Of a DNA stretch of 64,000 nt, positions 6,560 through 44,660 are shown piece by piece. The notes under the pieces were generated by a model. The model worked only from the letters and a program-made list of their open reading frames with translations, had not been told where the DNA came from and did not search any database. Where the stretch lies: positions 1-64,000 of the forward strand of contig NZ_JAATEJ010000034.1 in the NCBI RefSeq assembly GCF_012034175.1, in the 5' to 3' direction. The stretch is from Actinacidiphila epipremni. GTDB lineage: Bacteria > Actinomycetota > Actinomycetes > Streptomycetales > Streptomycetaceae. Position numbers and translations under genes: made by a program. Position 1 is the stretch's first letter, and each line of letters opens with the position of its first letter.

Positions 6560-6604
6560 ATCCGCACCCGCCCTCGCCGAAGACATCACGAAGGAACCCG
6601 TTCC

Positions 6605-14345: not shown

Positions 14346-14589
14346 CGCGCACCCTCCTTTACATGGCGATCCTGGCACACACCGGTCCTGGCGCCGCAGG
14401 AAGTCCGTCCCGCACCGAGCAGGTCGCCTGCGTCGCTGCCCCGGTAGGCGGCCGGGACGGCGAGGCGCTGGTCGGTGATCCTTTGCGTCCCCGTGGAAAC
14501 GGCCGTTACTCCCGGTTCGTGGGAGATCTGTCAGTGGTGGCCTTCACACTGGGAAGCCTGCGCGAGTGGTAGGGGGCGAGGGAGCCGGC

Positions 14590-16125: not shown

Positions 16126-17417
16126 ACGGCGAGGCGTTGGAGGCCGATCTGCGGGATGCGGCCCGGGTGCTGGTGGACCGGGGACGGGTTCGGGCCGAGG
16201 CCGAGCCGGAGCTGTACCGGGCGGCGGTGAAGGGGCAGGCCGCGCTCGCGGGGCTGTTCCGCTCGGAGCTGGGCTGGACGCTGGAGGTGCTGGAGGTGGC
16301 GCAGCTGGTCCGGCTGCACAAGCGGCGTGTGGATGTCCCGGGTGACCGGGGGCCTGCGGTGGCTCGCGGCGGGGGCCGTCCGGTGCTGCTGTCGCAGGAG
16401 GCGCTGGTCCTGGTGTGCTTGGTGTGTGAGCAGTTGTGGCGGCGGCCGCGGATGAGCGTACGGGAGTTGATGCAGGCGCTCGCGCAGGTGTGCGCGCAGG
16501 AGGCCGCCTCGGGTGGGCTACCGCGGGTGCAGTGGGTGGCCGGGGAGGGGATGTCGAAGCAGGAGGCCCGCTGGCACCGGCAGAACCTGGTGGACGCGCT
16601 GCAGGTGCTGGAGGCGGAGGGTTCGGTGGAGGCGGACTCCGACCTGGAGCGGGTCGTGGTGGACGAGGACGCCGACCTTGTGGTGACAGCCTTGAGGGAC
16701 CGGCTGGCGGCGCGGTTCTCGTCGTTGTCCCCCGCGTTGCTCGGCCTGGACGAGCTGCCCGCGCAGGAGCACGCGGCGGCCTTGTCGACCGCTTCGCTGC
16801 TCGACCCGGTGGCTCCGGCGCCGGACCAGGTGGCATCGGTGGAGGAGCGGCGGCTGCAGGCGCTGCGGCGGCTGGTGGACGACCCGGGCGTGGATCCCTT
16901 CGACGAGCAGACGCCGGGAACGGCGTACCTGCACACGCTGGCTGGCCGGGAGCGGGGGCTGGCGTTGCTGGCCGGCTTGGGGTTGGGGGTGAGCGTGCGC
17001 CGGGACTGGTGGGAGGTCACCGATCCCAGTGGGCTGGGAACCGCGATGGACTTCCCCAATGGGCGGCGGATGGAACGGCAGGCCGCATTGGCGTTGCTGG
17101 CTCACCTGGCCGAGCGGGACCGGGCCGGCTTCGTGGTGCAGGTGGGTGACGTGGTGGAGCTGCTGGAGGAGGTGCGGGCGGTGATGCCGAACTGGGCGGC
17201 CGGGTACAAGGCGCAGTTGCCTGCGTTGGCGCGGGCAGCGATCGGTGAGCTGGCGGCCGCACGGCTGCTGGTGCCGATGGCGGGTGAGGCGGAGCAGTGG
17301 CGGGCGACGCCCGGGGTGCACCTGTGGCGGGTGCGGGTGGCGCACGCGGCCCGCGGCACGGCGGGGCCCGAGCCCGGCGGGACGTCCGGTATCGAGCCGA
17401 GTGAGGGGGACGCGTGA
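16122..17417 (+). CDS. jetB: Wadjet type II subunit JetB (DUF2398-like)
   Basis: MukE-like winged-helix subunit that binds the kleisin JetA and the SMC ATPase. The 431-aa protein is helical and hydrophilic, with a region rich in basic and acidic residues (QLVRLHKRRVDVPGD; LVCLVCEQLWRRPRMSVREL) typical of the DUF2398/TIGR02678 class, and a C-terminal winged-helix-like end. The start is ATG 16122 in an ATGA overlap with jetA, and the stop overlaps jetC's GTG as GTGA. The family call relies mainly on position between a DUF2397 protein and an SMC-like ATPase. Confidence 0.75.
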   Translation: MNGEALEADLRDAARVLVDRGRVRAEAEPELYRAAVKGQAALAGLFRSELGWTLEVLEVAQLVRLHKRRVDVPGDRGPAVARGGGRPVLLSQEALVLVCLVCEQLWRRPRMSVRELMQALAQVCAQEAASGGLPRVQWVAGEGMSKQEARWHRQNLVDALQVLEAEGSVEADSDLERVVVDEDADLVVTALRDRLAARFSSLSPALLGLDELPAQEHAAALSTASLLDPVAPAPDQVASVEERRLQALRRLVDDPGVDPFDEQTPGTAYLHTLAGRERGLALLAGLGLGVSVRRDWWEVTDPSGLGTAMDFPNGRRMERQAALALLAHLAERDRAGFVVQVGDVVELLEEVRAVMPNWAAGYKAQLPALARAAIGELAAARLLVPMAGEAEQWRATPGVHLWRVRVAHAARGTAGPEPGGTSGIEPSEGDA

Positions 17418-20400: not shown

Positions 20401-22426
20401 ACTGCACATCCTGGACACGGCCGCCGCGCGGCGCCGCACCGCGCTGGAGCTTCTGGCCCAGGAGGCACGGCACGCCGAACAGGTGGCGGCCACGGCCCTG
20501 GACGCGGCCGCCACGGCCGAAGGCAAGGCACGGGAGGCAGATGGGGCCGCGGCCGCCAGCCACGCCGCGTGGGAGCAGGCGAAGCAAGCCCAGGCGCAGG
20601 CCGATGCCGAGCAGGCCGGTTTCCCGCTGCTGGAACCGGTCTCCTCGGCTCAGCAGCAGGAGGACGACGCGGCCGAGCAGTTGCAGCACGCCATCAGGCG
20701 CACTGCCGACACGCGCGAACGGCACCGCCGGGCCGCAGAGGCCGTGCGTCAGGCGCTGCGGGCCTTGCACCGGGCCGCCGACGCCGGCGGCGGCACCGTG
20801 CTGCCCACGGATCCGAAGGCGGCCGACGCCCACCGCGAGGACACCACCGTGATGTTCCGGCAGGTCGAGGCCTGGCGCAGTGCCGCTCGGCGGGTGATCG
20901 ACCTCGCGGGGCGGGCACGCCAGGACGCGGCAACCGCCGGGCGCTGGCAGGCCCTGGCGGCCGACGCCGCCCGGGAGGCGGAGCAGGCCGCCGTAAAGGC
21001 AAGGCGCGAGAAGGCGGCAGTGGAGGAGATGCGGCGCCTGCACGGCGCCGCGTACGAGGAACTGCGCGCCTCACTGCAGGAGGTCACCGGTGCGCTCGAC
21101 CGTGCCCGCAGGCGGGTGGAGGAGCTGCAACGCGCCAAGGAGAAGGCTGCTGCCGACGCGGCGTCGGCTAGGGCGCGGTTGGATGAGGTCGCACCGCTGC
21201 GCCAGGCGGCCGAGGAGCACCGCGATACCTGCCTCACGCAGATGGGCCGGCTCGTCGACGAGGGCCTGGCCCTGGCCGGTGAGGACATCCCCACCGGGCC
21301 GGAAGGCCGGCCCGCGAACCTGACCGCGGGACTGGCCTGGGCCAGGCACCTGCTGGCCGACCGCCACACCGGGCCGAGCGCAGGAGTGGGGGCGGATCGG
21401 CTCACTGCGGCGACCCGGACCCGGGACAGTGCGCTGAAGGCCCTCGAGGGCGCCGCCCGCAGCGCCAACAGCACACTGGCCCGGTTCAACCGGCAGGTCA
21501 TCCTCACCAACGTATCGGGCACCAGCTGGCAGCGTGCCGAGGTCGCCGATCCGGCCGCCGCCCGCGGCCAGGACCTGCGCGCGGCGGTGGAGGCGCTGCG
21601 CGCGGCGGTCTCCCAGCTGGAGCAGGACCTGCGCGCCGACATCAAGAAGGCCATCAAGACCAGCATGTTCGCCCAGTTGCAGCGCGACGTCCAGGTCCGC
21701 CAGGACCTCGCGCAAGACCTGGTGAAACAGATCGGTTTGACCTTGAAGGACGTGCGGACCGGGGTGGCGCAGGTGGGCGTGAAGGTCGAGTGGGCGGTGC
21801 GCAAGGACGCGGACGCGCAGACCATGGTGGAGCTGGTGAACAGTCCCCCCTCGGACGAGATGTTCGAGCGGATGTATGACGTGCTGCGGCAGCGGATGGA
21901 CGAATCCGTCGGGGACACCTGGGCGGACCGGGTCGCGCACACCTTCGACTACCGGGCCTGGCACGAGTGGACGATCTCGGTGACCCACTCCTCGTTCGGC
22001 GACGGAGACGGTGGCCGCTTCAAGGAGGTCAAGCCGCGCGGCGTGAACCCGCTGGAGACGCTGTCGACCGGGGAACGGCGCCTGGCCACAATGCTTCCCC
22101 TGCTGGCGGCCGCGTGGTCGATGTACAGCGGGGACTACCACGGGCCGCGGCTGCTGTCGATCGACGAGTTGGACGCGGCGTTCGATGACGTGAACCTCCG
22201 GCAGATGCTGGGACTGTTGCGCCGGTGGCAGTTCGACGTGCTGGCGACCGCGCCCTCGATGACCCCAGTGATCAAGAAAGAGGCCGGGCAGGTCGTCATC
22301 CACCAGGTCGTCACCAGCGGAAAACACCGCGTCACGGTGCCGTGGCTGTGGCAGGGCCACGGAGAGGCGCAGCCGCTGACACTGGACCTCGGCGAGGACT
22401 TCGAGAACGGAGGAACGGCCGGCTGA
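17414..22426 (+). pseudogene. jetC: Wadjet type II SMC ATPase JetC, split by an in-frame TAA
   Basis: SMC-like motor that loops DNA in Wadjet. Walker A GPNGSGKS is at residues 54-61 after RWQPTRAGVVNSW, the usual opening of TIGR02680-type proteins. The signature LSTGERRLATM and Walker B RLLSIDELDAAFD lie near the C-terminus. Between them are more than 1000 residues of coiled coil rich in Ala, Glu, Arg and Gln. TAA at 18428-18430 interrupts the frame after codon 338; the same frame stays open to 22426. A GTG at 18440, nine bases on, with a weak GAGG, could restart translation and make a two-piece ATPase. The gene is otherwise well kept, so the stop is recent, a sequencing error, or tolerated. 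Intact length would be 1670 aa, long for the family. Confidence 0.85.
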
Positions 22427-26693: not shown

Positions 26694-29600
26694 CTATTCG
26701 GCTGCTTCGGTCAGGTGGGCGAGAGTGGATCCGGTGAGGCCCTTTCGGACGTACAGGCGCTGGGTGATACGGCGGCGCAGTTCCGGGACGTGGCTGATGA
26801 CGCCGACAGTACGGTCGTGGGCGCGCAGGGAGTCCAGGACGTCAAGGACCTTGTGGAGGGTGTCGTCGTCGAGAGTGCCGAAGCCCTCATCGATGAAGAG
26901 GGTGTCCAGGGGGTTGCCGCCGACTTCATGGGTGACGACATCGGCCAGGCCGAGGGCAAGGGACAGAGAGGCGAAGAAGGATTCGCCGCCGGAGAGGGTA
27001 TCGGTCTTGCGGGGGCGGCCAGTCCAGGCGTCGGTGATTTCCAGGCCGAGGCCGGAGCGGGCGCCGTGGGCGGCTTGGTGGTCGGAGTGGCGCAGAGTGT
27101 AGCGGCCCTCGGACATCAGGCCGAGGCGGGTGTTGGCAGCGGCGACGACCTGTTCGAGGCGTGCGGCCAGGACGTAGGCCTCCAGCTGCATGCGGACCCG
27201 GGCGCTGGTTGAGTTGCCGGTGGCCAGGTCGGCGAGGTGGCGGGCGGTGCTGTGGGCCTTATCCAGTGCTTCCAGTCGCTCAACAGCCTCGCCCAATGTG
27301 GCGGCGAGGTCAGTGAGCTCCGTGGTGCGGGCCTGGGCGTTGCCGGCGGTGGCGGCTGCTTGGACGTACTGGTCGTCTGCGGCGCCGCGTCGGACCGCTG
27401 CGGCGTCGACGTCTGCGGGCGGCTGGGCAGCGGCCTGCTGCAGGGCGGGGTTGTCGAGGACGGCTTGGTGGGTGGCGCGGGCCTCGCGCCACTGGTTGAT
27501 CTCTTCTTCGATGTTGCCCAGGTCCTCCTCACTGAGCAGGGCCTGCTCAGCGGCGGCCAGGGTGTCAAAGCCCTGGGTTGAGGCGGCGGCCGTGGCCTCG
27601 GTGGTGCGGGTGCCGCGGGTCTCCGCAGCGATGGCGGCGGCGCGGGACGCCTCGGCGGCCTGCTTGAGGTGGTCGGCGGTGCGGGTGAGCTCGTCAATAC
27701 GGGCTGCGAGGGTGGGGGCGGTGCCGCGGGCGTCGTCGAGTTTCTTGGTGAGCTCGGCCTGCCGCTGGGACTGGGTGTCGTAGGTGGCGTTGCGGGCGGA
27801 CAGGCCGGCGGTGGCGAGGTTGAGCTGCTGGGTCATGGCGGAGTGTTCGCGGTCCATGGCGAGGAGTTCCTCGTCGGCGGCCCCCCGGTCTGCGGCTCGC
27901 TGGAGGGCGTCGGTCAGCTGCGTGGTGAGGGCCTCGTGTTCGGCCGTGAGGTCGGCCAGCGGGGTGTCGCCGGCTTCGCCGGTCGCGGTGGCAGCGTTCT
28001 CGCGCAGCTGCTGCAGTTCGCTGGCGATCGCGTCGCGCTGCTGCTGGGCTCGCTGGTGGGTCTGCTCGGCGGCTTGTTCGTCCTCGCGGGTGGGCTGCCC
28101 GTCGGGAGCTGTGGCGGGGGCCGGGTGGGAGCACGAGCCGCAGACCGGGCAGGGCGCGCCGTCGGCGAGGCTGGCGGCTAGTTCAGCGGCCATGCCCTCG
28201 GTGCGTCGGCGGCGGATATCGATGTGGTCCTGGGCAGCCATCTCGGTGGCTTGCTGAGCGGCGGCCAGACGCTGTTCGGTGGCGGTGATCTGCGCGAGGT
28301 GGGCGTCGCGGCGTTCGGCGGCCTCCACGCGCGAGGTCAGGGTCTCCAGCTGATCCCGGTGGCGGCGGCCCTCTTCCTCGGCCTGGCGGGCGGTTTCCCG
28401 GCGGGCGTCCAGGGCGGCGCGGTGGGTGGTCTCCTGTTCGAGCCAGTTGCGGGCGGTGTGCTGCTGGACGGTGAAGTCCTGCCGCTCGGCGTCGATCCGT
28501 TCCAGATCGGCGGTGAGTTGGCGAAGGTTGGTCTCTTCGGGGAGCAGGGTGCCCAGCACAGCGACGTCGTCGCGCATGCGTTGCCCGGCCGTTGCGAGGT
28601 CAGCTGCCTGGAGTGTGGCGTGCTCAGAGAGCAGCCGGCTTCGGGCGGCGCTTTCGGTGTCCTGGGCGTGGGTGTGGTCGGTGCGGGCGGTGCTGGCGGC
28701 GTGCAGCAGCGGCGCGAGCTGCTGGGCGCGTCGGGCCTGCTCGCGGCGCCGGCCCAGGGCTTCTTGGTGAGGGGTCTGCTCGTGCAGCCTGTCCAGTTCC
28801 GCGCGGGCGGCGGCATGGGTGGTCTGCTGCTGATGCAGGACGCGCGTGGCGGCTTCCAGGATCTGGTGCTCGGCCTGGTTCTTCTTTGCCTTCTCGGCGT
28901 CGGCCTGGGCTGTGAGGGCGTCGGCCTGGCTTGCCTGGGTCAGGTCCTGGGCCCAGACAAGGGCAAGGTCGGTCAGGGCGTGCGGGACGTCGGGAGTGGG
29001 GGCGTCGTGCTCGGATTTCAGGTCCGGTCCGGCAGCCTGGTGGATGCGGGCCGCCAGATGCAGCACTTCGTCGCGGGCGGCGTCGCGGTTCTTCTGGGTG
29101 GTGCGGCTGTGGTCGTTCAGCCAGCGTTCGATCTGCGCGTACCGGTCGGTGTGGAAGAGCTTGCCCAGCAGTTCGCGGCGCTGCGGCGCGGCGGCGTAGA
29201 GGAACTTGGTGAACTCGTTCTGGGGCAGGAGGACGACCTGGCAGAACTGGGTCCGGCTCATGCCGAGGAGGTCTTTGATCTCCTTGCCGGTTTCCTGATG
29301 GGAGCTACTGGAGGGTTCCCAGTGGCCCTGGCCGAGGGAGTCGGTCGTCCACCGCTGGAGCCGGGTCTCGGCCTTGTGGACGGTCTCGCCCGTACCGCTT
29401 CGCTTGGGGCGCGTCTGCTGGGGTTCGCGTTCGATGCGCAGCCGGTGGCCGGCGATGGTGACGTCCAAGGTGACCTGGGTGAGCAGGTCGGCCGGGGCGT
29501 GGTGGCTGCGCAGCAGAAGGTCGCGTTCGACCGGGGGTTCGCCGTACAGGGCGAAGCAGATGGCGGTGAACAGGGTGCTCTTGCCGGCGCCGGTGTCGCC

Positions 29601-29702
29601 GTGTAGGAGGAACAGGTTGTCGGCGGACAGCGCGTCGAAGTCGACGGTGTGGGTGCCGGCGAAGGGGCCGAAAGCCTGCAGGGTGAGGTGGTGCAGGCGC
29701 AT
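26694..29702 (-). CDS. sbcC: SbcC, SMC-like ATPase of the SbcCD nuclease (1002 aa)
   Basis: Subunit of the Rad50/Mre11-like SbcCD complex that processes hairpins and blocked DNA ends. Walker A GDTGAGKST is at residues 35-43, the zinc hook CPVCGSC at about 517, the signature LSGGESFF at about 900 and Walker B LFIDEGFGTLD at about 935. Long coiled coils flank the hook. The start is ATG 29702, overlapping the sbcD stop by one base (TGATG), so the two are coupled. All ATPase and hook motifs are intact. Housekeeping sbcCD usually sits in the chromosome core; this copy in an accessory region may process telomere hairpins or foreign DNA. Confidence 0.95.
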   Translation of the reverse strand: MRLHHLTLQAFGPFAGTHTVDFDALSADNLFLLHGDTGAGKSTLFTAICFALYGEPPVERDLLLRSHHAPADLLTQVTLDVTIAGHRLRIEREPQQTRPKRSGTGETVHKAETRLQRWTTDSLGQGHWEPSSSSHQETGKEIKDLLGMSRTQFCQVVLLPQNEFTKFLYAAAPQRRELLGKLFHTDRYAQIERWLNDHSRTTQKNRDAARDEVLHLAARIHQAAGPDLKSEHDAPTPDVPHALTDLALVWAQDLTQASQADALTAQADAEKAKKNQAEHQILEAATRVLHQQQTTHAAARAELDRLHEQTPHQEALGRRREQARRAQQLAPLLHAASTARTDHTHAQDTESAARSRLLSEHATLQAADLATAGQRMRDDVAVLGTLLPEETNLRQLTADLERIDAERQDFTVQQHTARNWLEQETTHRAALDARRETARQAEEEGRRHRDQLETLTSRVEAAERRDAHLAQITATEQRLAAAQQATEMAAQDHIDIRRRRTEGMAAELAASLADGAPCPVCGSCSHPAPATAPDGQPTREDEQAAEQTHQRAQQQRDAIASELQQLRENAATATGEAGDTPLADLTAEHEALTTQLTDALQRAADRGAADEELLAMDREHSAMTQQLNLATAGLSARNATYDTQSQRQAELTKKLDDARGTAPTLAARIDELTRTADHLKQAAEASRAAAIAAETRGTRTTEATAAASTQGFDTLAAAEQALLSEEDLGNIEEEINQWREARATHQAVLDNPALQQAAAQPPADVDAAAVRRGAADDQYVQAAATAGNAQARTTELTDLAATLGEAVERLEALDKAHSTARHLADLATGNSTSARVRMQLEAYVLAARLEQVVAAANTRLGLMSEGRYTLRHSDHQAAHGARSGLGLEITDAWTGRPRKTDTLSGGESFFASLSLALGLADVVTHEVGGNPLDTLFIDEGFGTLDDDTLHKVLDVLDSLRAHDRTVGVISHVPELRRRITQRLYVRKGLTGSTLAHLTEAAE

Positions 29703-30898
29703 CAGACGATTTCCTTCTGCAGTTCGTTCACCCGGGCGGAGTCGACGGCCTGCTGGAGCAGGGCGTGTTCGTCGGGGGTGGGGCCGGTGCCGCGCATGTC
29801 GGTGATGAAGTCGCAGGCGATGTCGAGTTCGCTGCGGCCGCGGAGACGTTCGGTGTAGGTGGGGGTGCCGGTGGCTTGGGCAGGGATGAAGGCGCGCTGG
29901 TGCTTGAGGCTGAGTGTGTGGGGGAAGCGGCGGCGCAGCCGGGCCATGGCCTCGAACGGCAGGGCCGCATCGGTGAGGGTGACCTCGAGCCAGGCGTCCT
30001 TGAGTGGTTCGTGGGCGGGATCGGTGAGCAGGTCGTCCAGGAGGCCTTCGACGCATTCCAGGCGGTGGGGGGTCTGGCAGGGCAGACGGGTGACCGTGGG
30101 GGCCGTGCCGGGGGTGAGGTCGACCAGTGTGAAGGACTTGACGTGGTCGGCTTCGGAGAAGGAGTAGGGCAGCGGGGAGCCGCTGTAGTGGACGCGGTCG
30201 GTGACCCTCTGGGGGCCGTGGAGGTGGCCGAGGGCGACGTAGTCGATGCTGTCGAAGACGTCGGCGCCGACGTGGGCGACACCGCCGACGCTGATGTCGC
30301 GTTCGCTGGCCGACTCCTCCGCCTGGGATTCATCGTCCTGACCGGTGCCGGGGGTGACGAAGGCGTGGGCGATGACCACCGAGCGGGTCCCGGGCGGCTG
30401 CCGGTTGGTGAGATCGGAGTGGACCCGGTCCAGGGCCGCGGTCAGCACCGCGGCGTGCGAGGTGGCCTCCGCCTCCAGCTGGCCGCGGACCATCGATGGC
30501 TCGAGGTAGGGCACCCCATACACGGCGACCGGTCCGTGCTCGTCCGTCAGGACGACGGGGACGTCGCAGGTGGCCGGGTCGGTGCGCAGGTGGATCCCGG
30601 CGCGGGCGAACAGCCCGGAGCCGACGCCGAGACGGTGGGCCGAGTCGTGGTTTCCGCTGATCATGACGATCGGTATCTCGAGGTCAGCGAGCTGGTGCAG
30701 GGCCCGGTTGAACAGGCGTACCGCATCCAGGCCGGGGATGGCCCGGTCGTAGATGTCGCCGGCCATCAGGATCGCGTCGACGTTCTCGGCGCGGGCCGTA
30801 TCGTTCAGGTGATCGAGGAAGGCGCTCTGGGCGGGGATCAGGTCTTCTCCGTGGAACCGGCGGCCCAGGTGCCAGTCCGAGGTGTGCAGGAACCGCAT
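29702..30898 (-). CDS. sbcD: SbcD, Mre11-like nuclease (398 aa)
   Basis: Mn-dependent phosphodiesterase of SbcCD. Calcineurin-like metal motifs are complete: TSDWHLGRRF at residues 6-15, MAGDIYDR at about 45-52, ISGNHDSAHR near 81, AHAF and GHLHGPQ further on. Starting at ATG 30898 gives the normal family N-terminus MRFLHTSDWHLG. The upstream 50 bp on the minus strand includes an AT-rich stretch (about 30950-31010) that is the likely promoter region. It is the first gene of the sbcD-sbcC pair, probably with the HA-repeat helicase downstream. Confidence 0.95.
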   Translation of the reverse strand: MRFLHTSDWHLGRRFHGEDLIPAQSAFLDHLNDTARAENVDAILMAGDIYDRAIPGLDAVRLFNRALHQLADLEIPIVMISGNHDSAHRLGVGSGLFARAGIHLRTDPATCDVPVVLTDEHGPVAVYGVPYLEPSMVRGQLEAEATSHAAVLTAALDRVHSDLTNRQPPGTRSVVIAHAFVTPGTGQDDESQAEESASERDISVGGVAHVGADVFDSIDYVALGHLHGPQRVTDRVHYSGSPLPYSFSEADHVKSFTLVDLTPGTAPTVTRLPCQTPHRLECVEGLLDDLLTDPAHEPLKDAWLEVTLTDAALPFEAMARLRRRFPHTLSLKHQRAFIPAQATGTPTYTERLRGRSELDIACDFITDMRGTGPTPDEHALLQQAVDSARVNELQKEIV

Positions 30899-33943: not shown

Positions 33944-34684
33944 TCAGCGCGCCCGCCAGGTGCGGATCTCCAGGTGAATAATGCGGGCGCTGGGGTGAAC
34001 ACGGCCGGTCTCGACGAGGAAGGCGTGCACGGCGGCGGTCACGTCCCCGCCGGCTGCGTCCACGCGGGCAGCGAATTCGGCGGCATCAAAGCCGCCGGTG
34101 TGGGCGGAGCCGTAGGAACGCTCCTCGGTGTGGTCGGCGCGCTGGATGACGCTTCGGCGGATGCCAGGCGAGTCGGTGCGTGAGCCCGATGGGTGGATGT
34201 AGCCGGTCTTGGCCACGCGGACGGTGAAGGCCAAGCGCAGTCCGAGGCGGGCAGCTTCTGCGATCAGGGGACGCAGCCGGGCGGAGCCGGACGCGATGGC
34301 CTGGGCTCCGGCGCGGCCGGTGCCAGTGCCGGCGGGGGTGATCAACACTGCTTTGGTCCGGACGCGTGCGCGGCTTCCGGAGGCGGTGGTGCGGCGCGTG
34401 ATGTGGGGGGCAGCGATGGCGGCGAGCTCTTCACGGTCGCTGATCCCGCCGGCCACGGCGCGCTCGATCTGGGTGAGGGCGGGAACGAAAGCCGCGCCCT
34501 TATTGCGGGTGGCGAACTGGGAGATCAGGGAGGGGTCGCGGCCGAGGATTCGGGCGATGTCGGCTTTGGTCAGGCCGGCTTGCTGGAGGCGGGCGGTGAT
34601 GCGTGCGGCCTCGTTCAGGTCCCTGCCGGTCGGGCCGGTGCGGGAGGTGCCTGCGGCGGCTCGTCGGCGGTTGCGCGGGGGCAT
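33944..34684 (-). CDS. HTH protein, candidate terminal protein (246 aa)
   Basis: Basic protein with an HTH at about residues 25-60 (QQAGLTKADIARILGRDPSL then ISQFATRN), Arg-rich N-terminus, and a C-terminal domain of mixed strands and helices. The start is ATG 34684, overlapping the polymerase-like gene's TGA by one base (TGATG), so it is the last gene of a three-gene coupled operon. A small basic protein next to a family-B-like polymerase resembles protein-primed systems (phage phi29 TP and DNA polymerase; Streptomyces Tpg/Tap and the SCP1-type Tpc/Tac pair). It has no Tpg similarity that I can see. Terminal-protein function is inference from size, charge and position. Confidence 0.55.
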   Translation of the reverse strand: MPPRNRRRAAAGTSRTGPTGRDLNEAARITARLQQAGLTKADIARILGRDPSLISQFATRNKGAAFVPALTQIERAVAGGISDREELAAIAAPHITRRTTASGSRARVRTKAVLITPAGTGTGRAGAQAIASGSARLRPLIAEAARLGLRLAFTVRVAKTGYIHPSGSRTDSPGIRRSVIQRADHTEERSYGSAHTGGFDAAEFAARVDAAGGDVTAAVHAFLVETGRVHPSARIIHLEIRTWRAR

Positions 34685-36855
34685 CAGGCGGGTGCTCCGG
34701 TGAGGGCGGTGCGGCCAGCGTCGCGCAGAGCGAGGAGTTCTTCCTCGCTGGTCGGGGCGACGACGGGGCCGGTGAGGTGGCCCTTGAGGAGGTAATCGCC
34801 GGGCTGGCGATGGTAGGGCCAGGGGTGGGTGCCGGTGAGGTAGAGGGCGTCGGTGCGGAAGGCGACGACGGTTCCGGTGGGAACGTGCAGGGCGCCAGCG
34901 AAGGCGCCCTCGTCGCGGTGGCGCTGGATGAGCAGGGCGGCGCGGGCGGCGGACCAGATCGCGGCGGACCATTCGGGGTGGGCGTTGGGGTCGCGAGAGA
35001 AGCCGGTGGGTTTTTGCCAGGTGATCTGCTGGTCGTCGAAGCTGATGATCTCCGCGTCCGCGGGGACGTCGCGTTCCAGGGCACGGGGGGTGGTGCCGGT
35101 GACCATGCGGGGCCGCTGGGCGAAGGACCCGATCCCGTACAGCAGGATGGCGCGCACCGCCCGGGAGGCCAGGTGCGCGGCTCGGGCCTGGCGGGGGTCG
35201 GTGTGCAGGGCCGCCTGGGCGTCGAGGGCGGCCCAGGCGTCCTTGAGGTTTTTCGCCCAGTCGTCCAGGGGTTTGCCCTCCTCCCACAGGATGCCGTCGA
35301 GGATCTCGATCTTCCAGGGGCTGAGGGGGTTGGTTAGGGCCGTGTGGACTTCCGGTCCGCCGGCCCAGGTGGTGAAGGTGGTGCCGGGGGTGGCGGGGTA
35401 GTGCCAGGCGCGGTCGCCGGGAGCCGGGGCGGGCAGCAGCCCGACGTGGCCCCAGCCTTCGGGGACGGTGGCGCGGATGTGCCAGTGCCCGCAGCCGAAC
35501 AGGGCCCTGGCCTGTTCATTGTCCGACCACGAGTGGAAGGTGGCCGCGGTGATGCGGCGCGGGGTGCCGACCGGGGACTTCCAGGTGTGTTTGGCGTAGG
35601 CGAAGGTCCGGTCATATTCCACCAGGGCGGGCAGTTGCTCCGGCACTTGGGGGGTGGTCGCGGGGGTGAGGAGTTCGTTGCGGCCTTGGCCTGCGGTGGC
35701 GTGCATCAGGCCGCGCAGTTCCTCGGAAAGCACGGGATAGCCCTCGGCGTACTGACCGCGGGTGGGGATGGTGCGGGTCCACAGGTCCCGGCCGGTCTGG
35801 GACGGTGAGCCCATGACGACGGCGTCGGGCCAGTGGCGGCGCAGGTTCTTCCACAGCAGCACGAACGCGTCGCGGACGGTGGCGGGGTCGGCGCCATCGG
35901 GGTCGAACCACTCCCCTACCGAGCGGATCTCGACGTGTCCCTCGCCGTTTTCGCGCATGTAGCGGCCGACGGGGTTGCGGGCATGGACGAAGTGGCCGGC
36001 CATGCGGTCCTGGCCGCGTCCGGTGTCGGTGCGCCAGCCCAGGGTGGGGGCGTTCAGCCAGGCGGCGACGGCGTCTTTGAGATAGGGGTAGCGGGCGGCG
36101 TCGCGGTGCCAGGGATCGCCTGCGGTGATGTAGATCCGCTCGACCGGGCCAGGCACGGTCAGCGAGACGGCGTTGAGGATCTCGCCGGCGCTCGCGCCCG
36201 CGAGATCGATGCGGATGGTCTGGTCGCGATGTGCCAGGATCCCGGTGGCAGTGTCGAGGAAGACCGTCGCCCTGGCCTGCTGGGTGAAGTTCGGCCGGGT
36301 GGACGCCAGACCGCTGACATGCCCGAACCAGGCTGGTCCCGCGTCGGGGGGGATCGACGGCAGCAGGCGCGGCTGCTGCGCGGCAGGCTCGAGTGCATCA
36401 GCCAGCGCGGGCCGGGCGGTGAACTCGGCCGGCGCCGCGCTGGGCGCGAGGGCGGCCTCGGGGCGTGCCTCGGCCAGCGGGGACGACGGCGCGGGCACGA
36501 CGACGGTTGCGCTCGGGGCGGGTGCGGGCGGGGCCACGGCCTGCTGCTGGGCGCCAGCAGTGGCAGCAGGCGCACAGAGCGCGGCAGATGCGTGGTTCCC
36601 CTGGCTGGTTGCTGAGGTCGTGGGAGTGGCCAGGGCGCCGGGGGTCAGATCCGGCGCAGCGGCTACGACGTCGGCGATACTCAGCCCGGCAGCGGGAGCG
36701 ATCTGCTCGGCCTTGGCCTTGGTGTGGCTGGCCAGGGCGTTGATCTGCTTGTCCCGACGGGCTTCCAGCCGGTTCAGGGCGGTGCGGGCCTTCTTGATGT
36801 CCTCGCGCAGGCTTCGCAGTTCGGCCAGGCCGGCCTTGTAAGCGGACGCATCCAT
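34684..36855 (-). CDS. Putative diverged family-B DNA polymerase (723 aa)
   Basis: The first 45 residues are a charged coiled coil, then an Ala/Pro-rich linker to about 160. From about 190 a folded domain follows whose order of motifs reads like a family-B polymerase: motif A-like LVEYDRTFAY (D415), a palm/finger stretch PEVHTALT with ILDGILWEEGKPLDDW, motif B-like RAVRAILLYGIGSF (Y573-G574), and motif C-like VVAFRTDALYLTG (D669, with Thr-Asp in place of Asp-Thr-Asp). Together with a small HTH partner this suggests protein-primed replication. The start is ATG 36855 in a TGATG overlap with the upstream gene. I know no exact family; catalytic competence is uncertain because motif C keeps one clear acid. 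Confidence 0.5.
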   Translation of the reverse strand: MDASAYKAGLAELRSLREDIKKARTALNRLEARRDKQINALASHTKAKAEQIAPAAGLSIADVVAAAPDLTPGALATPTTSATSQGNHASAALCAPAATAGAQQQAVAPPAPAPSATVVVPAPSSPLAEARPEAALAPSAAPAEFTARPALADALEPAAQQPRLLPSIPPDAGPAWFGHVSGLASTRPNFTQQARATVFLDTATGILAHRDQTIRIDLAGASAGEILNAVSLTVPGPVERIYITAGDPWHRDAARYPYLKDAVAAWLNAPTLGWRTDTGRGQDRMAGHFVHARNPVGRYMRENGEGHVEIRSVGEWFDPDGADPATVRDAFVLLWKNLRRHWPDAVVMGSPSQTGRDLWTRTIPTRGQYAEGYPVLSEELRGLMHATAGQGRNELLTPATTPQVPEQLPALVEYDRTFAYAKHTWKSPVGTPRRITAATFHSWSDNEQARALFGCGHWHIRATVPEGWGHVGLLPAPAPGDRAWHYPATPGTTFTTWAGGPEVHTALTNPLSPWKIEILDGILWEEGKPLDDWAKNLKDAWAALDAQAALHTDPRQARAAHLASRAVRAILLYGIGSFAQRPRMVTGTTPRALERDVPADAEIISFDDQQITWQKPTGFSRDPNAHPEWSAAIWSAARAALLIQRHRDEGAFAGALHVPTGTVVAFRTDALYLTGTHPWPYHRQPGDYLLKGHLTGPVVAPTSEEELLALRDAGRTALTGAPA

Positions 36856-37469
36856 CAGGACTCCTGGCTGGTGATGGCAGTAGGGCGGGTGCGGATGTAG
36901 GCCACCGGGCCGCCGGAATGGGACGGGAGCGCAGCGCCGAGCAGCCGGCTCGCCGCTTGGCGTCCGGACCGGGTGGGTGCGGTGAGGTGCGTGACGGGGG
37001 TGACCAAGTCGGTGACGTAACCGGCCAGAACGGCATCGGGAAAGCTGTGCCGGCCCTGACTGTCTTTCGCCCACTGTTGCAAGCCGCTGAGGACGGCGAC
37101 CACGTAGCCGGACAGGGTCACCGGCAGGATCTGTCCGGCTGCCACACTCGCCGGATTGCACCGCCACCGCCCCTGCAAGGCAGCCAGCAGCTCATCGGGA
37201 GGCAGGGACGCAGAGAAGCCTTGTGTCTGCTCACTCTGCTGGCGGGTCGCCGGGGCGACGTCGGCGCGGAGCACGGCTATCTCCGGTACCTGCAGGTGCG
37301 CCAGGTCCGCTACAGGACGGTCCTTCAGTGCGAGGACCACCTCCAGCGGCACCATAACCCGCACGCCGCGACGGGCTGTCCCCGGGATCAGGCCCGCGTG
37401 GATCAGGCGACGGAAGGTGGTCACCGCGCAGTCGAGTTCCGCAGCCGCCTGACCGGTGGTCAGCAGCAC
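36855..37469 (-). CDS. MerR/excisionase-like HTH protein (204 aa)
   Basis: First gene of the replication-like operon. The N-terminal 50 residues form a MerR/excisionase-type winged helix (TTGQAAAELDCAVTTFRRLI then HAGLIPGTARRGVRVMVPLE). The rest, including a hydrophobic stretch around ILPVTLSGYVVAVLSGL, is unrecognised. The start is GTG 37469 with GGAAGGAGG at ideal distance. It may be the operon's regulator or an origin/telomere-binding factor; the tight coupling to the polymerase-like gene argues for a shared role. Confidence 0.7.
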   Translation of the reverse strand: MLLTTGQAAAELDCAVTTFRRLIHAGLIPGTARRGVRVMVPLEVVLALKDRPVADLAHLQVPEIAVLRADVAPATRQQSEQTQGFSASLPPDELLAALQGRWRCNPASVAAGQILPVTLSGYVVAVLSGLQQWAKDSQGRHSFPDAVLAGYVTDLVTPVTHLTAPTRSGRQAASRLLGAALPSHSGGPVAYIRTRPTAITSQES

Positions 37470-39387: not shown

Positions 39388-39967
39388 TCAATAAGCGAAC
39401 TCGACATAGGCGATGTCGGTGAGCCGGACTTGGCTGCGCTTGCGTGGAGAGCGCAGGTGGAAGTAAGTCTCTGCCAGCGCCTCACCGAGGATCTGCCGTA
39501 GTTCAGGTTCCCCCGCGCCCTGGTGGCGGGCCTCGAACAGCAGTTGTGGGTAGGGGGGCGGGCAGTGCCTCGGTGAGCCGGCGCTGACGGCCGTCGTCGG
39601 AGGAGCCGGCGGCGGCGTCGAACCCGAACCAGGCACAGAGGTGTACCTGCACAGGCGCGTGCTGGCTGTTGATGATCTGGCGATGGATGCGGCGGCGGAC
39701 CCTCGGCTGCCACATGCGGATGATGTCGTGGGCGATGGCCTCGCGGGTTGGTTGGGTCGCGGGGCTCTGCGGATGGTCGAGGAGGTTTTGCAAAGCGGCT
39801 GGCGTGGTGTTCAACTGCGCGGCCAGTGCCGTGATGCTGGTGTGGCGCGCCTGCAGGAAGCGCAGCCGGGCCCGGTCGGATTTCGGGGGCTGGCGTGTCC
39901 AGTAGCGGGCGTCGGCAATGTCGAGTGCGTGGGCGATGGAGCTGGTGCTGTCCGGGCCGTGGAGCAT
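39388..39967 (-). pseudogene. tpg: Tpg-like telomere terminal protein, frameshifted
   Basis: Tpg is the protein covalently attached to Streptomyces linear DNA ends. The first frame (from ATG 39967, AAGGA upstream) gives an HTH-like region (SITALAAQLNTTPAALQNLL), then RMWQPRVRRRIHRQI, VHLCAWFGFDAAAGSSDDGR and RRLTEALPAP. The match then continues in another frame with YPQLLFEARHQGAGEPELRQ, ILGEALAETYFHL and LTDIAYVEFAY, the typical Tpg C-terminus. Removing one base from the six-G run at 39553-39558 (plus strand) restores one 192-aa protein, close to the 184-185 aa of known Tpg. It is either a recent one-base insertion or a homopolymer error. It is the last gene of the transposition-type operon, 15 bp after the preceding stop. 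Confidence 0.8.
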
Positions 39968-41110: not shown

Positions 41111-41913
41111 CGGGTCTGCGCCCCTGGTACCAGGTGGCGCAGGAGGGCGTCGGGATCGGCGGTGGGTTGGCCGGTGCGGTGCTGGATGCTGATGCTGCGG
41201 TGGGTGACAGTGGCCCAGCGGCGGAAGTTGCCGTGGGCCCACCTCTGGTCGAGGTGGAGCAGCACGGCGGGATCGGCGGTCTTCCAGTGGGGGTGGAAGG
41301 CGGCGATGGTCGTGGGGATGTCAGCGCGGTCCAAGAGGTCCAGGCTGTGCCAGCAGGTGATGCGTGCGGCGAGCATCGCGGTGGCGCGCAGGGCACGGAT
41401 GCGGTGGCTGCCGGCGGTCAGGAGCAGTGCGAACTGGGTGCGTGGGTCGTCGCAGAGGTAGCGAAGGTATTCCAGGCAGGTGGCGGAGAGCTGGTGTGCT
41501 TCGTCGATGGCCAGCAGCCGCACCGGGTGGTGGAGGGCGTGGCGGACCAGGTCGTCGCTGGTACCGCAGTCATCCGGGGGCTGGCCGGACAGGCCAAGGG
41601 CGTGGTGCAGGCTGTGGCGCAAGTCCTGGGGCCGGGCCTGGGGCCGGGGCAGGATGCGGATGGCCTGCATGTGGGGGTTGTGGTCCAGGACGGTGTGCAG
41701 GGTGAAGGTCTTGCCTACCCCTGCTGGTGCGGTCAGGCACATCATGCCGTGCTGGGCGAAGGTGGTGCGCAGGGCGGCTGCGGCGGCGGAGAGCGGGCTG
41801 GTTGTCACGGTGCGGGCGTGGGGAAGGTTGAGGTGGTGGCGGGCGCGCCGGACGGTGCCGTGGGCAGTGGCCGTGGTGGTGGCGGGGGTGCCCCGGTAGG
41901 AGGTGGGGGTCAC
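41107..41913 (-). CDS. AAA+ ATPase, TniB/TnsC-like, copy 2 (268 aa)
   Basis: Second of two ATPases in the operon. Walker A APAGVGKT is at residues 62-69, Walker B LLAIDEAHQL and sensor LLTAGSHRIR follow. TniB/TnsC/MuB proteins select target DNA and activate the transposase. The start is GTG 41913, overlapping the upstream TGA as GTGA. It is more diverged and Pro/His-richer than copy 1. Two ATPases in tandem may form a mixed filament or ring, but that is speculative. Confidence 0.75.
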   Translation of the reverse strand: MTPTSYRGTPATTTATAHGTVRRARHHLNLPHARTVTTSPLSAAAAALRTTFAQHGMMCLTAPAGVGKTFTLHTVLDHNPHMQAIRILPRPQARPQDLRHSLHHALGLSGQPPDDCGTSDDLVRHALHHPVRLLAIDEAHQLSATCLEYLRYLCDDPRTQFALLLTAGSHRIRALRATAMLAARITCWHSLDLLDRADIPTTIAAFHPHWKTADPAVLLHLDQRWAHGNFRRWATVTHRSISIQHRTGQPTADPDALLRHLVPGAQTR

Positions 41914-42722
41914 CGGTCGTCGTCGCGGCGTACGGAGCGCGGCGGCCGTGCGCGGCGCAGAGCCCAGCGTGCGAGGGTTTCGTCGACTTCGGTCAACCCG
42001 CGGCGCTTGAGGCCCTCCAATACGTGGTGGGTGATCTTGGACCACATGCGGAAGGTGCCGCCACCGGCTTCCAGGTCGATGAAGTTGATCAGTTCGGGTG
42101 ATGCGTTTGCCCAGACCGGGTGGAACAGTGGAATGTTCTTGGCGACTTCGTCGGGCTCCATGGGTGTGAACTCCTGCCAGATGTAGATCCGGGAGGCCAG
42201 GGCCGGTTCGTTGTAGAGGGTCTTGTAGCACTCCTCACCGCCGACGAAGAGCACTGCGGGACGGTTCCTGCCCTTGCCGCTGTCCCACAGGTGCCGGATG
42301 AACTCGAAGCACTCACGGCTGAACTGCTGGGCCTCGTCACAGACCAGCACGTAGGGGCGGCGTGCCAGGGAGCGCTTGAGGAGTTGGTCGAACTCGCTAG
42401 GGCGGGCGGGGGGCTTGCCCTCCAGGTGCAGAGCGTCGAACAGTTCCATGCGGATGTCGCGGGGGGTGGGGCGGGAACGGAACTGCAGCAGCAGCACGAG
42501 GTCCGGTGCGACTTCCTTCAATGCCGCCCGCACCGAGAACGTCTTGCCCAGTCCTGCGTCACCGTAGATACACGACATGGCGCGGGCGTCGATGGTGTCG
42601 GCGATGTTCTCGCCAGCTTCCAGCAGCGCCTCGGTGGCCACGATTCGGGCAGAGGCAAGGCCGAGGTAGAAGTCGGGGTCGCCGTCGTCGGTGGCGACAG
42701 CGGTCACGGTAGCGGTGGCCAT
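41910..42722 (-). CDS. AAA+ ATPase, TniB/TnsC-like, copy 1 (270 aa)
   Basis: Transposition regulator ATPase. Walker A YGDAGLGKTF is at residues 53-62, Walker B VLVCDEAQQF with D129-E130, and sensor-like AVLFVGGEECYKTLY. The C-terminus matches the small AAA lid (GGGTFRMWSKITHHVLEGLK). The start is ATG 42722 with AAGGAG six bases upstream. It is co-transcribed with the DDE transposase upstream, as in tniA-tniB or tnsB-tnsC. The motifs are intact. Confidence 0.85.
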   Translation of the reverse strand: MATATVTAVATDDGDPDFYLGLASARIVATEALLEAGENIADTIDARAMSCIYGDAGLGKTFSVRAALKEVAPDLVLLLQFRSRPTPRDIRMELFDALHLEGKPPARPSEFDQLLKRSLARRPYVLVCDEAQQFSRECFEFIRHLWDSGKGRNRPAVLFVGGEECYKTLYNEPALASRIYIWQEFTPMEPDEVAKNIPLFHPVWANASPELINFIDLEAGGGTFRMWSKITHHVLEGLKRRGLTEVDETLARWALRRARPPRSVRRDDDR

Positions 42723-43008
42723 GATGGCTCCTTCGGGTACGGATGGAGAGGCTGCCGGGAGTTCGGGGTCTGTGTGAGGGGGGCTGAGGTGATGGGTCGC
42801 GGGAGGGGACGGCCCGGACGCCCCCCAGGAAGGCGCAGCCGGCGGCGTCGAAGACGTCGAGTGCGGCCGGTGTTGCGAGGCGTGTGCGGACGCAGATTTT
42901 GCTGCCGGCTTGGACGGTGAAAGTGGCGGTGTAGGTGCGGCGCTGGAAGAGGATGTGGCCGCCCAAGCTGATGGTGCGCGCCGCGCCAGGCGGAGTGGCG
43001 GGTGTCAT
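42559..43008 (-). CDS. Small ORF between transposase and ATPase, overlapping the latter (149 aa)
   Basis: ATG 43008 overlaps the transposase stop as ATGA, which argues that it is translated. The first 55 residues look real and beta-rich (ISLGGHILFQRRTYTATFTV then KICVRTRLATPAALDVFDAA), reminiscent of the beta-barrel at the C-terminus of Mu-type transposases. After about residue 65 it is low-complexity Arg/Pro sequence and runs 164 bp into the ATPase gene in another frame. Either the C-terminus is genuine overlap or an earlier stop was lost. Confidence 0.45.
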   Translation of the reverse strand: MTPATPPGAARTISLGGHILFQRRTYTATFTVQAGSKICVRTRLATPAALDVFDAAGCAFLGGVRAVPSRDPSPQPPSHRPRTPGSLSIRTRRSHHGHRYRDRCRHRRRRPRLLPRPCLCPNRGHRGAAGSWREHRRHHRRPRHVVYLR

Positions 43009-44606
43009 TGGCTGTCCTGGCCGGCCGTGTCGGAGGGGGCGGGGATGGCCCAGCGGGCTCCGGGAGTCAGGCGGCGGGGCATGTAGCCAGCGGGCACGCC
43101 GTCGTCCTCCTTGATGCGGGCTCGGGGGGCTGCGCCGAGTTCAGCGGCGGCCTGCTTGCGGGCCATGGTTCCGGCCTGGCGGGCGGGGCCAGCCTGCGTG
43201 AGGGGCTGGAATTGGCGCCGGCGGCGGCGCTGGGCGTCGGCCAGGTCACGACGCAGCCGCTTCACCCGCTCATCACGGGCCTGGTAGACCTCGCGGATCT
43301 CCTGTTCGCTGGCTTCGTCGGCGAGGTGGGCGGTGCCCAGGTGCTGGCCGGTCCGGGCGTGGAAGGCCTCAATGGTCCGCGGGTGGTGGGGCTGGTAGCG
43401 CACGACGACTTCGGTGCCGGTGCGGCCGGTCATCCATGCGCCGACGTAGTCTCGGTTCTGCCAGCGGATTCCGTGGCCGTGGATGATGCGGGTGGAACGC
43501 TCTGCCTCCAGCAAAAAGGTGTCCAGGTCACGAAGGGTGGGTTCACGAAGGGGCGTGTCGTCGCTGTTCCAGCTCTCCAGTGGGGTGAGGTCGCCGTAGC
43601 CCTGCATGCGGTGCTCGGCGTTTCGGGTGCGCACCCAGGTGGCAAACAGGCCGGTGAAGGCGTCGATCGTCAACGCCGGGTCTTTGTCTCCAGAGCGGCG
43701 TTTGGTGTTGAGTTTCTGCGATTTGGTGTAGCGGGGAAGCGTGGAGAAGAACATGCTGGTCGCTGCCCGGTTGAGGTTCTCGATGCTGCCCTTGAGGTGC
43801 GGGGTGTAGGGCGGCAGGACATCCACATGGACGCCGAAGGCGCCCATAGCCTGGCCGACGGCGCGGGACAGGAAATCCTTGCCCCGGTCGATGCGGATCC
43901 GCCGAGGCAGCCCGCCGGCCGGGCCGTGGACATCGTCGGTCAGGATGCACGAGCGCAGCGCAGCCAGGATCGACCCGCGGTGCGGGAAGTGCGGCGTGAC
44001 GGCCCAACCCATGGTCATGCCGGTGTGGCAGTCACAGAACCAGGTAACCCAGGGCTTGACTAGCCGTCCGTCCGCCCAGACCAGCACAGGGGCCTGCTTA
44101 TGGTCGCCTTCCCACTCCTCGTTGCGTGCCGTCGGGGGCCTTCTCAGGTGCGGGTCATGGGCCCGGGAGGCCGGGATGCCCGAGCGCAGGCCCGCCAGGT
44201 CCCCTGGAGTCAGGTCCCGGTGGAAGGCCCGGCGCAGCGTGGACAGGCTCGGCACGCCGTTTTCCGTGCCGCCGGCTTCCATGTCGCTGTCGTCCTTTGT
44301 GTGGCCGGCTTCCTTGACGAGTTCGTCGTGGACGCCTTTGACGTTGCCGCGGTGGTAAGCGAGCCTGACGCGTAGTTCCTTGGTGATCTCGAAGTGCTCG
44401 CGCGGTGGCAGGTCTGCCGTACCGGTGGCGCGGGCGCGCTTCAGCCGCCGCCATACCGTGCTCTCGTCGACGCCCACGCTGCGGGCAACCAGCCGCACGT
44501 CAGCGCTCGTCACCTGCTGCAGGGCGAGCAGCGACCGGATCGCGGCAGTCAGCAGGTTCTTCTTCTCCCGCCGACTGACCGGTGCGGGAACAGGCGCCTG
44601 GTCCAC
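43005..44606 (-). CDS. DDE transposase of the Mu/TniA/TnsB type (533 aa)
   Basis: Cut-and-paste or replicative transposase with an RNase H-fold core. The N-terminus carries HTH segments (VTSADVRLVARSVGVDESTV). The catalytic acids are D168 (EWEGDHKQ), D240 (IRIDRGKDF) and E275 (HLKGSIENLN), spacing D-34-E, as in rve/TniA/TnsB enzymes. A Mu-type C-terminal beta barrel region follows (EVVVRYQPHHPRTIEAFHAR) and then a basic tail. The start is GTG 44606 because AAAGGAG lies seven bases upstream. It is followed in tight coupling by the small ORF and two AAA+ ATPases, the usual TniA-TniB arrangement. Confidence 0.85.
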   Translation of the reverse strand: MDQAPVPAPVSRREKKNLLTAAIRSLLALQQVTSADVRLVARSVGVDESTVWRRLKRARATGTADLPPREHFEITKELRVRLAYHRGNVKGVHDELVKEAGHTKDDSDMEAGGTENGVPSLSTLRRAFHRDLTPGDLAGLRSGIPASRAHDPHLRRPPTARNEEWEGDHKQAPVLVWADGRLVKPWVTWFCDCHTGMTMGWAVTPHFPHRGSILAALRSCILTDDVHGPAGGLPRRIRIDRGKDFLSRAVGQAMGAFGVHVDVLPPYTPHLKGSIENLNRAATSMFFSTLPRYTKSQKLNTKRRSGDKDPALTIDAFTGLFATWVRTRNAEHRMQGYGDLTPLESWNSDDTPLREPTLRDLDTFLLEAERSTRIIHGHGIRWQNRDYVGAWMTGRTGTEVVVRYQPHHPRTIEAFHARTGQHLGTAHLADEASEQEIREVYQARDERVKRLRRDLADAQRRRRRQFQPLTQAGPARQAGTMARKQAAAELGAAPRARIKEDDGVPAGYMPRRLTPGARWAIPAPSDTAGQDSQ

Positions 44607-44660
44607 AAAGGTTCTCCTTTCGTCCGTGACATGCACAAAACGCGCCAGGGCGGGCTGGGA

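Follow-up and report, generated by a model that had tools for sequence, protein, structure and literature searches.

A tac-tpc type operon on a contig with a telomere-like end in Actinacidiphila epipremni very probably encodes a divergent protein-primed family-B-like DNA polymerase and its candidate terminal protein

Does the three-gene operon at positions 33944-37469 of a 64,000-nucleotide stretch of Actinacidiphila epipremni DNA encode a telomere replication module, in which the telomere-associated protein is itself a relative of DNA polymerases? The stretch, called the window here, comprises bases 1-64000 of the 74,632-bp contig C30 from a draft genome of 8.2 Mb in 100 contigs. All three genes are on the minus strand. 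The first, P0003 (36855-37469), encodes 204 amino acids; it is followed by the tac-like gene P0001 (34684-36855; 723 amino acids) and the tpc-like gene P0002 (33944-34684; 246 amino acids). A preliminary description of this DNA had reported that the three genes overlap as TGATG, and both junctions do read TGATG, with one A common to stop and start. On the evidence given below, the operon is very probably a tac-tpc type telomere replication module, in which P0001 would be a divergent family-B polymerase that uses P0002 as its primer.

The three open reading frames (ORFs) are not considered to be chance ones, because relatives exist on plasmids and a downstream partner ORF recurs. In tblastn searches of 72,556 plasmid records, relatives of P0001 were found in 57 (Streptomyces 26, Curtobacterium 7, Micrococcus 6, Cutibacterium 5, Kitasatospora 4, and others), those of P0002 in 27 (expectation value (E) limit 0.1), and those of P0003 in only 11, so that conservation is lowest for P0003. 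Among the 60 genome loci examined (67 were fetched), 59 have a downstream partner ORF beside the polymerase-like gene; this was counted by a mechanical criterion (plus strand, at least 150 amino acids, start between -60 and +400 nucleotides from the polymerase-like stop codon), and some of the ORFs counted may not be true genes.

P0001 shows 55.9% identity to a protein of pFRL3 (88% covered; tblastn) and 32.6% identity to one of pSCO2 (E 2e-51). P0002 also matches both plasmids (E 2.3e-51 for pFRL3 and 3.7e-21 for pSCO2), and in each of them the P0002 relative lies directly after the P0001 relative. PMC8743542 states SCP1-type telomeres for SCP1, pSCO2, and pFRL3, and tac and tpc for SCP1 and pSCO2; Tpc is described as a protein of 259 amino acids with a helix-turn-helix (HTH) in PMC3572947. 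Because of these adjacent homologues on two replicons described as SCP1-type, P0001 is assigned by sequence homology to the Tac family and P0002 is placed with Tpc, the two being a new member of Tac/Tpc. The preliminary description had suggested that the pair might be an "alternative" to the known telomere pairs, an idea which gives way to the homology with the pairs of pSCO2 and pFRL3. According to PMC4513846, SCP1 Tac is necessary and sufficient in vitro to attach deoxynucleoside triphosphates to Tpc, with short extension, and Tap does likewise for Tpg. The same paper describes the activity of Tac as short end patching of 3' overhangs, unlike the whole-replicon replication of the phi29 type. 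A description of 2015 gives no polymerase motif for Tac.

The polymerase reading of P0001 rests mainly on its predicted structure. Residues 171-723 were modelled by AlphaFold2 without templates; the corresponding alignment (A3) holds this region of P0001 and 36 relatives (37 rows, many of them close), whereas a smaller alignment (A1) has 12 rows. The best model had a predicted local distance difference test (pLDDT) value of 88.9 and a predicted template modelling (pTM) score of 0.88, the mean pLDDT of the five models being 85.8-88.9. When the model was compared with the PDB by Foldseek, the top two entries were complexes of phi29 DNA polymerase, one containing DNA (E 1.3e-10) and the other its terminal protein (E 1.4e-10), and beyond phi29 polymerase no entry reached 0.001. 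VIA-align, used as a re-ranking of Foldseek's own list, superimposed model residues 23-553 on phi29 residues 4-520 (Z 20.1, root mean square deviation 5.6, 429 aligned residues). The best entry other than phi29 was 9leb, a DNA polymerase holoenzyme (Z 12.2), after which came mpox polymerase and family-B enzymes of thermophiles, with Z values of about 10-11.5. In a library of viral models, 37 reached E <= 0.001: 29 named DNA polymerases (tectivirus, phi29-like phages, His1, adenoviruses, and similar), 6 unnamed proteins, and 2 poxvirus proteins of other names. The preliminary description had proposed searching a structure prediction of 34684-36855 against polymerase folds, and the outcome is a confident match to phi29 DNA polymerase. 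This match and the telomere context support its idea that the telomere-associated protein may itself be related to family-B polymerases.

The phi29 match takes in the exonuclease-like part of the protein and ends at phi29 residue 520 of 572; the thumb of phi29 polymerase is presumably located in the unmatched C-terminus. For reference, residues 1-189 of phi29 polymerase are assigned to the exonuclease and residues 190-572 to the polymerisation domain (PMC6921018). At the sequence level, matches to the Pfam family DNA_pol_B_2 were found in five of the ten relatives scanned (pSCO2, E 4.4e-4; pKRAD01, 0.0015; Microbacterium, 0.015; Plantibacter, 0.091; pCSL1, 0.22), all of them under the gathering score, and the other five gave none. 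All five matches stop at profile position 365-366. In A1, such matches occur in 4 of 12 members at E <= 1, and in A3 they are found in 3 of 37 members at E <= 0.1. A PHROGs search with A1 returned no polymerase, no relative of Tac or Tap was found in scans of viral contigs, and P0001 had no tblastn match in 50,697 phage records.

The equivalents of three polymerase motifs are present in P0001, in the order that the preliminary description had given. Motif A, LVEYDRTFAY (residues 411-420; 35596-35625, minus strand), contains D415, and motif C, VVAFRTDALYLTG (residues 663-675; 34831-34869, minus strand), contains D669. Both aspartates are invariant in the alignments (12 of 12 rows in A1 and 37 of 37 in A3), which span Streptomyces, Micrococcus, Clavibacter, Cutibacterium, and others. 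Motif B, RAVRAILLYGIGSF (residues 565-578; 35122-35163, minus strand), is marked by R568-x7-G576. G576 is likewise present in all rows of both alignments; R568 is found in every row but one (11 of 12; 36 of 37), the exception having Lys, and the R568-x7-G576 spacing equals the K-x7-G of phi29 and of Tap. Motif A of Tac pairs with motif A of phi29 in an hhalign alignment that is not significant, and also with motif A of Tap. In the model, D415 (model residue 245) is in the strand 237-246, near its end; R568-G576 (398-406) lie inside the long helix 384-408; and D669 (499) is between the strands 493-497 and 500-503. Motifs A, B, and C of polymerases are usually arranged in this way, and the placement of the two aspartates agrees, indirectly, with the polymerase reading.

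The motifs are, at the same time, degenerate, with Arg and Leu in place of Lys and Asn and a single Asp in place of DTD, so that the motif call is weak by sequence alone. The canonical K-x3-N-S-x-Y-G and Y-x-D-T-D-S are not found: position 568 is Arg or Lys, 572 is Leu, Ile, or Arg, and 576 is Gly, whereas in motif C position 667 is mostly Arg or Asn, 668 is Thr or Gly, and 669 is Asp. P0001 is therefore termed a divergent relative rather than a canonical member of the family. The DxE of the exonuclease seems to be lost as well. With the register set by eye from the sequence alignment, residue 201 is Asp in 10 of 12 rows, and residue 203 is Glu in none of the 12. Because its catalytic DxE is without the Glu, the exonuclease-like domain is probably inactive.

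A relationship to Tap, the telomere-associated protein partnered by Tpg, was indicated by a profile search. The A1 profile gave weak matches (E 9.8e-5 to 3.9e-4) to one stretch in three of 35 genomes of the genus. One of these loci, L088, was opened and shows an XRE-HTH protein of 798 amino acids followed by a protein of 185 amino acids. The former is taken as Tap, because its homologue on another plasmid precedes a gene whose annotation is terminal protein TpgA1. In hhalign, Tac and nine Tap-type sequences (A4) aligned with a probability of 97.7% and E values of 2.1e-12 and 6.5e-12 over 344-358 columns, with the three motifs included and in register; a rerun scored 101.9, and none of 60 shuffles was as good (maximum 24.1). 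In the own genome, a Tap profile found a full Tap on contig C37, and its sole other match at E <= 0.001 was P0001 (E 6.2e-4). Among 297 genomes of the family, the Tac profile gave 20 weak rows (E 1e-7 to 1e-3), of which 17 fell on one stretch, profile positions 224-463, in ORFs of 736-990 amino acids, Tap identity having been looked at directly for L088 only. Comparison of Tap (A4) with a 14-row alignment of phi29-type polymerases (A6) gave no proof of polymerase homology from sequence (E 0.088, with 1 of 60 shuffles as good). Judged by the profile comparison of the two, Tac is clearly homologous to Tap, and Tap too is probably a divergent protein-primed family-B-like polymerase.

A Tpg query of the own genome (E limit 0.1) did not match P0002; it found an intact Tpg on contig C37 and, in the window, a broken copy. 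This broken Tpg-like gene, in two frames (E 5.3e-7 and 8.8e-7), is at 39397-39934 on the minus strand, and the tac-tpc operon begins about 2 kb downstream of it. It should also be mentioned that at four loci (L090, L092, L093, and L095) proteins of 1,600-1,800 amino acids have Tap-like sequence as their C-terminal part, each then followed by a small gene. These proteins are from Rhodococcus, Microbacterium, and one Streptomyces plasmid, and one of them is annotated with a CHC2 zinc finger.

The first 310 bases of the window are telomere-like, with packed perfect hairpins whose loops are mostly TGAC, TGGC, or TGCC closed by C-G. A scripted count found five perfect hairpins in bases 1-250, compared with a maximum of three in 250 control bins of the window. 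The DNA fold of the same bases had a z value of -5.08, and 0 of 200 shuffles was as stable. The contig begins with this telomere-like end, of which the outermost bases are probably absent. This end resembles the left end of the linear plasmid NZ_CP108691 (bases 43-308, E 6e-7), a record that is absent from the Tac-bearing plasmid records identified by tblastn, and more weakly the right end of NZ_CP134205 (57 bp only, E 1e-3). NZ_CP134205 carries the closest relative of P0001 among the plasmid records, together with a Tap. Its two ends differ, and we take the left one to look like a typical Streptomyces end. This plasmid (L165, L166) may be a natural hybrid with Tap and Tac pairs serving one end each.

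Matches to the window end were found in ten of the 297 family genomes, the own genome included, with two candidates scored per genome (four per genome in the Tac search). In three others the match lies 35, 67, and 275 bp from the end of a contig, and all three have a near-full-length Tac, on the matching contig in two of them; the copy in G116 has an in-frame TGA. As Tac occurs at E <= 1e-50 in 64 of the 297 genomes (in two as fragments), three out of three would be an event of about 1% by chance.

The genomic position of Tac points in the same direction. Twenty Tac-bearing contigs were taken from genomes in few contigs, and 13 of them are of chromosome size. In 12 of these 13, a Tac copy lies less than 110 kb from an end (in 11 of them less than 50 kb), where uniform placement would put about 2-3%. 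G155 and G180 have a Tac copy near each chromosome end. Full-length Tap was found in four of the 13 genomes (G141, G059, G162, and G154) and in none of the other nine, GtpA/GtpB-type pairs not being searched for; the Tap search gave no match in G117 and G180, and fragments or the HTH part only in the other seven. Contig C1 of G155 (L208, L209) is a linear chromosome in one contig, with Tac 29.4 kb from both ends. Both of its ends read G5-6, C, then G6 C, and their hairpins are closed by CTGACG, like those of the window. They agree by eye at a one-base offset over 260 bases (194 of 600 bases are identical without the offset). In PMC8743542, SCP1-type ends are listed from plasmids only. G-run ends are seen on both sides of pSCO2, on both sides of pLMV7 (after CTA), and on one side of pFRL3. 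pLMV7, which carries a Tac/Tpc-type pair, bears terminal proteins at its 5' ends (PMC3869321).

As a separate observation, ten assemblies (L057-L064, L077, and L079) have apparently the same Tac of 542 amino acids and partner, with equal lengths and positions. Eight are Microbacterium, and the others are bins labelled Leucobacter and Acidobacteria; this set is perhaps a recently spread plasmid plus mis-binning.

P0002 is the candidate terminal protein, that is, the protein primer, on the basis of its tblastn relatives, alignment, and model. The preliminary description had noted a small basic HTH protein after the polymerase-like gene, and P0002 does have an isoelectric point of 11.78 and an N-terminal HTH in the model (pLDDT 88.7, pTM 0.63). 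Its Pfam HTH matches are weak and under the cut-off, but the best structural matches of model residues 24-90 are HTH proteins (Z 6.5). For the C-terminal half no clear structural match was found; the best-scoring rows, from Z 6.5 downwards, lie over the HTH part. Residues 117-246 align with Y-family polymerases (residues about 240-340) at Z 4.5-4.6, which is within background. Over 32 terminal-protein rows, nine residues are invariant. Ser, Thr, and Tyr are absent from these nine, and no Ser, Thr, or Tyr column that might mark the priming residue reaches 80%.

These features can be combined into a mechanism. Bidirectional replication would leave a 3' overhang at the end of the replicon. P0002 would bind P0001 and present a side-chain hydroxyl group as the primer, and P0001 would add the first nucleotides to it, with D415 and D669 as the putative metal ligands. 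P0001 might then copy the folded overhang over a short distance, and another polymerase would finish. The superposition on phi29 polymerase breaks off before the C-terminal end of that enzyme, so that the short synthesis may be due in part to a missing thumb. The end that P0001 and P0002 serve would be the one at window position 1.

Several observations weigh against this interpretation. The polymerase kinship that the preliminary description had suggested from the motifs is not recovered by profile comparison. In hhalign, A6 against Tac was not significant (E 0.45 with A3 and 0.44 with A1; 0.77-0.81 on rerun), and column shuffles scored as well in 44 of 60 cases (A1) and 48 of 60 (A3). P0001 itself has no match in Pfam, NCBIfam, or PHROGs, and an hmmsearch of the PDB with the Tac and Tap profiles found no polymerase. 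Canonical residues are lost, namely the first Asp of DTD and the Lys and Asn of motif B. Membership in the Tac family was argued through pSCO2 and pFRL3 and the statement of one paper, not through SCP1's own Tac. The host has a complete Tap/Tpg pair on contig C37, and given that pair P0001/P0002 may be non-essential. As to the ends, the outermost bases of the window are probably missing, so that a G-run end cannot be checked there. The match to the window end is, by itself, not specific: it occurs internally in six genomes, of which G060 and G091 have a full Tac, G283 has fragments, and G195 and G205 have none, the sixth (G224) not being among the genomes with a match in the Tac search. Tac is far from the ends in G144 (335 kb) and G230 (1.36 Mb, in a 2.8-Mb replicon). 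No G run was seen in 9 of 12 Tac-bearing replicons, nor in 19 of the 20 left ends inspected, and a G-run rule for all Tac-bearing telomeres was rejected; many of these ends may be truncated assemblies. The perfect terminal repeat of pCSL1 starts with C.

Part of this evidence would also fit a protein that has kept the family-B fold but is catalytically dead, holding the terminal protein and the overhang while DinB1/DinB2 or Pol I makes the bond. The degeneracy of motifs B and C and the loss of the exonuclease DxE speak for such a protein, and linear replicons are stated to require DinB1 or DinB2 genetically (PMC4513846). Inactivity is not expected, however, to leave D415 and D669 invariant in every row across diverse genera, and it agrees poorly with the sufficiency of SCP1 Tac in vitro that the same paper reports. 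The dead-enzyme explanation is therefore considered to be unlikely. Hardly any weight can be given to the idea that structure prediction produced the phi29 match as an artefact. In its favour, the sequence profiles have no significant match to phi29 polymerase and the alignment consists of only 37 sequences, many of them close; against this, the models reached mean pLDDT values of 85.8-88.9 and a best pTM of 0.88 with no templates, the sub-threshold DNA_pol_B_2 matches of half of the relatives scanned all end at 365-366, and most of the viral models retrieved are named DNA polymerases.

A different explanation is that the module is a plasmid replication initiator, or a transfer or defence component, which is merely located on linear replicons. 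Defence genes are abundant in the window, with Wadjet-, Gabija-, and pPIWI-type genes on the same contig, and six opened plasmid records of relatives are labelled circular. Two of these labels seem to be misleading, because the ends are like those of linear DNA: in pCSL1 the two 600-bp ends are identical and inverted, and in pSCO2 both ends carry a G run. The homologues on pSCO2 and pFRL3 belong to replicons described as SCP1-type (PMC8743542), Tac copies cluster at chromosome ends, and Tac is related to Tap, all of which makes this explanation very improbable.

The telomere module with an active polymerase thus stays the preferred reading. In a broader sense, Tac and Tap, the two characterised classes of telomere-associated protein in Streptomyces, probably form one family of divergent, exonuclease-degenerate relatives of the phi29 and tectivirus protein-primed polymerases, which the linear chromosomes and plasmids of many Actinobacteria would have adopted for short-range end patching. 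Tac/Tpc would then be no peculiarity of a handful of plasmids, being found near chromosome ends and sometimes as the only recognisable pair there. What appears to be new here, on the strength of the model, is the view of Tac as a protein-primed polymerase that is family-B-like but divergent and whose exonuclease site is degenerate, with Tap probably another of this kind. No report of Tac or Tap as a family-B polymerase was found in the open-licence literature; the search left subscription journals and bioRxiv outside, and a prior report is possible. The reading would account for how some Streptomyces-type bacteria complete their linear DNA ends, and the fold, with its named putative catalytic aspartates, reduces the puzzle of Tac to a two-mutant experiment. 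If true, it would bring Streptomyces telomeres, phi29-like phages, and adenovirus-type replication into one evolutionary picture. It would also give a handle on chromosomes without Tap and Tpg, for which undiscovered systems are predicted in PMC8743542.

The first gene of the operon, P0003, encodes a small HTH_17/excisionase-like protein, with a match to HTH_17 (5.4e-7) above the cut-off and one to excise below it; it is perhaps a regulator or a telomere DNA binder. An excisionase-type or transfer function for the operon was considered and rejected. Elsewhere in the window, the plus strand carries a pPIWI-RE module of PprDinG and PprPIWI (2927-9397), Wadjet-type genes for JetA, JetB, and two JetC-like ORFs (14566-22426), and a Gabija pair, GajA/GajB (56001-59568; E 5e-215 and 1e-180). 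Wadjet acts on circular plasmids, so that a linear carrier, as this replicon appears to be, would be spared. On the minus strand are two large ORFs (26694-30898), which by eye we take to be SbcC/SbcD-like, and transposition genes (Mu-transpos_C, rve, and AAA_22; 41910-44636), which we assume to be possibly TniA/TniB-like.

Comparison with known systems places the operon as follows. GtpB/GtpA of S. griseus is another pair of telomere-associated and terminal proteins (PMC7205883), and its likeness to P0001/P0002 is one of reported pair type alone. Tap/Tpg shares the two-gene layout; Tap differs from P0001 in its N-terminal XRE-type HTH, in the Lys kept in motif B, and in an invariant Lys after motif C. 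With phi29 p2/p3 and the tectivirus and GA-1 polymerases, P0001 shares the predicted fold over nearly the whole modelled part, the exonuclease-like domain included, and protein priming is common to the phi29-type polymerases and Tac (for Tac, according to PMC4513846). P0001 differs from these enzymes in having no significant sequence similarity to them, degenerate motifs, and no exonuclease Glu, and SCP1 Tac, unlike phi29, is described in that paper as yielding short products only. With respect to SCP1-type telomeres, a G-run start cannot be shown at window position 1, where the outermost bases are probably absent. P0001 is only 33% and 56% identical to the Tac proteins of pSCO2 and pFRL3, carries an alanine/proline-rich N-terminal stretch, and is preceded in its operon by an extra HTH gene. 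The closest likeness is nevertheless to Tac/Tpc of SCP1, pSCO2, and pFRL3, in which the polymerase-like gene is followed directly by the gene for a basic HTH terminal protein, and both partners on pSCO2 and pFRL3 are homologous to those described here.

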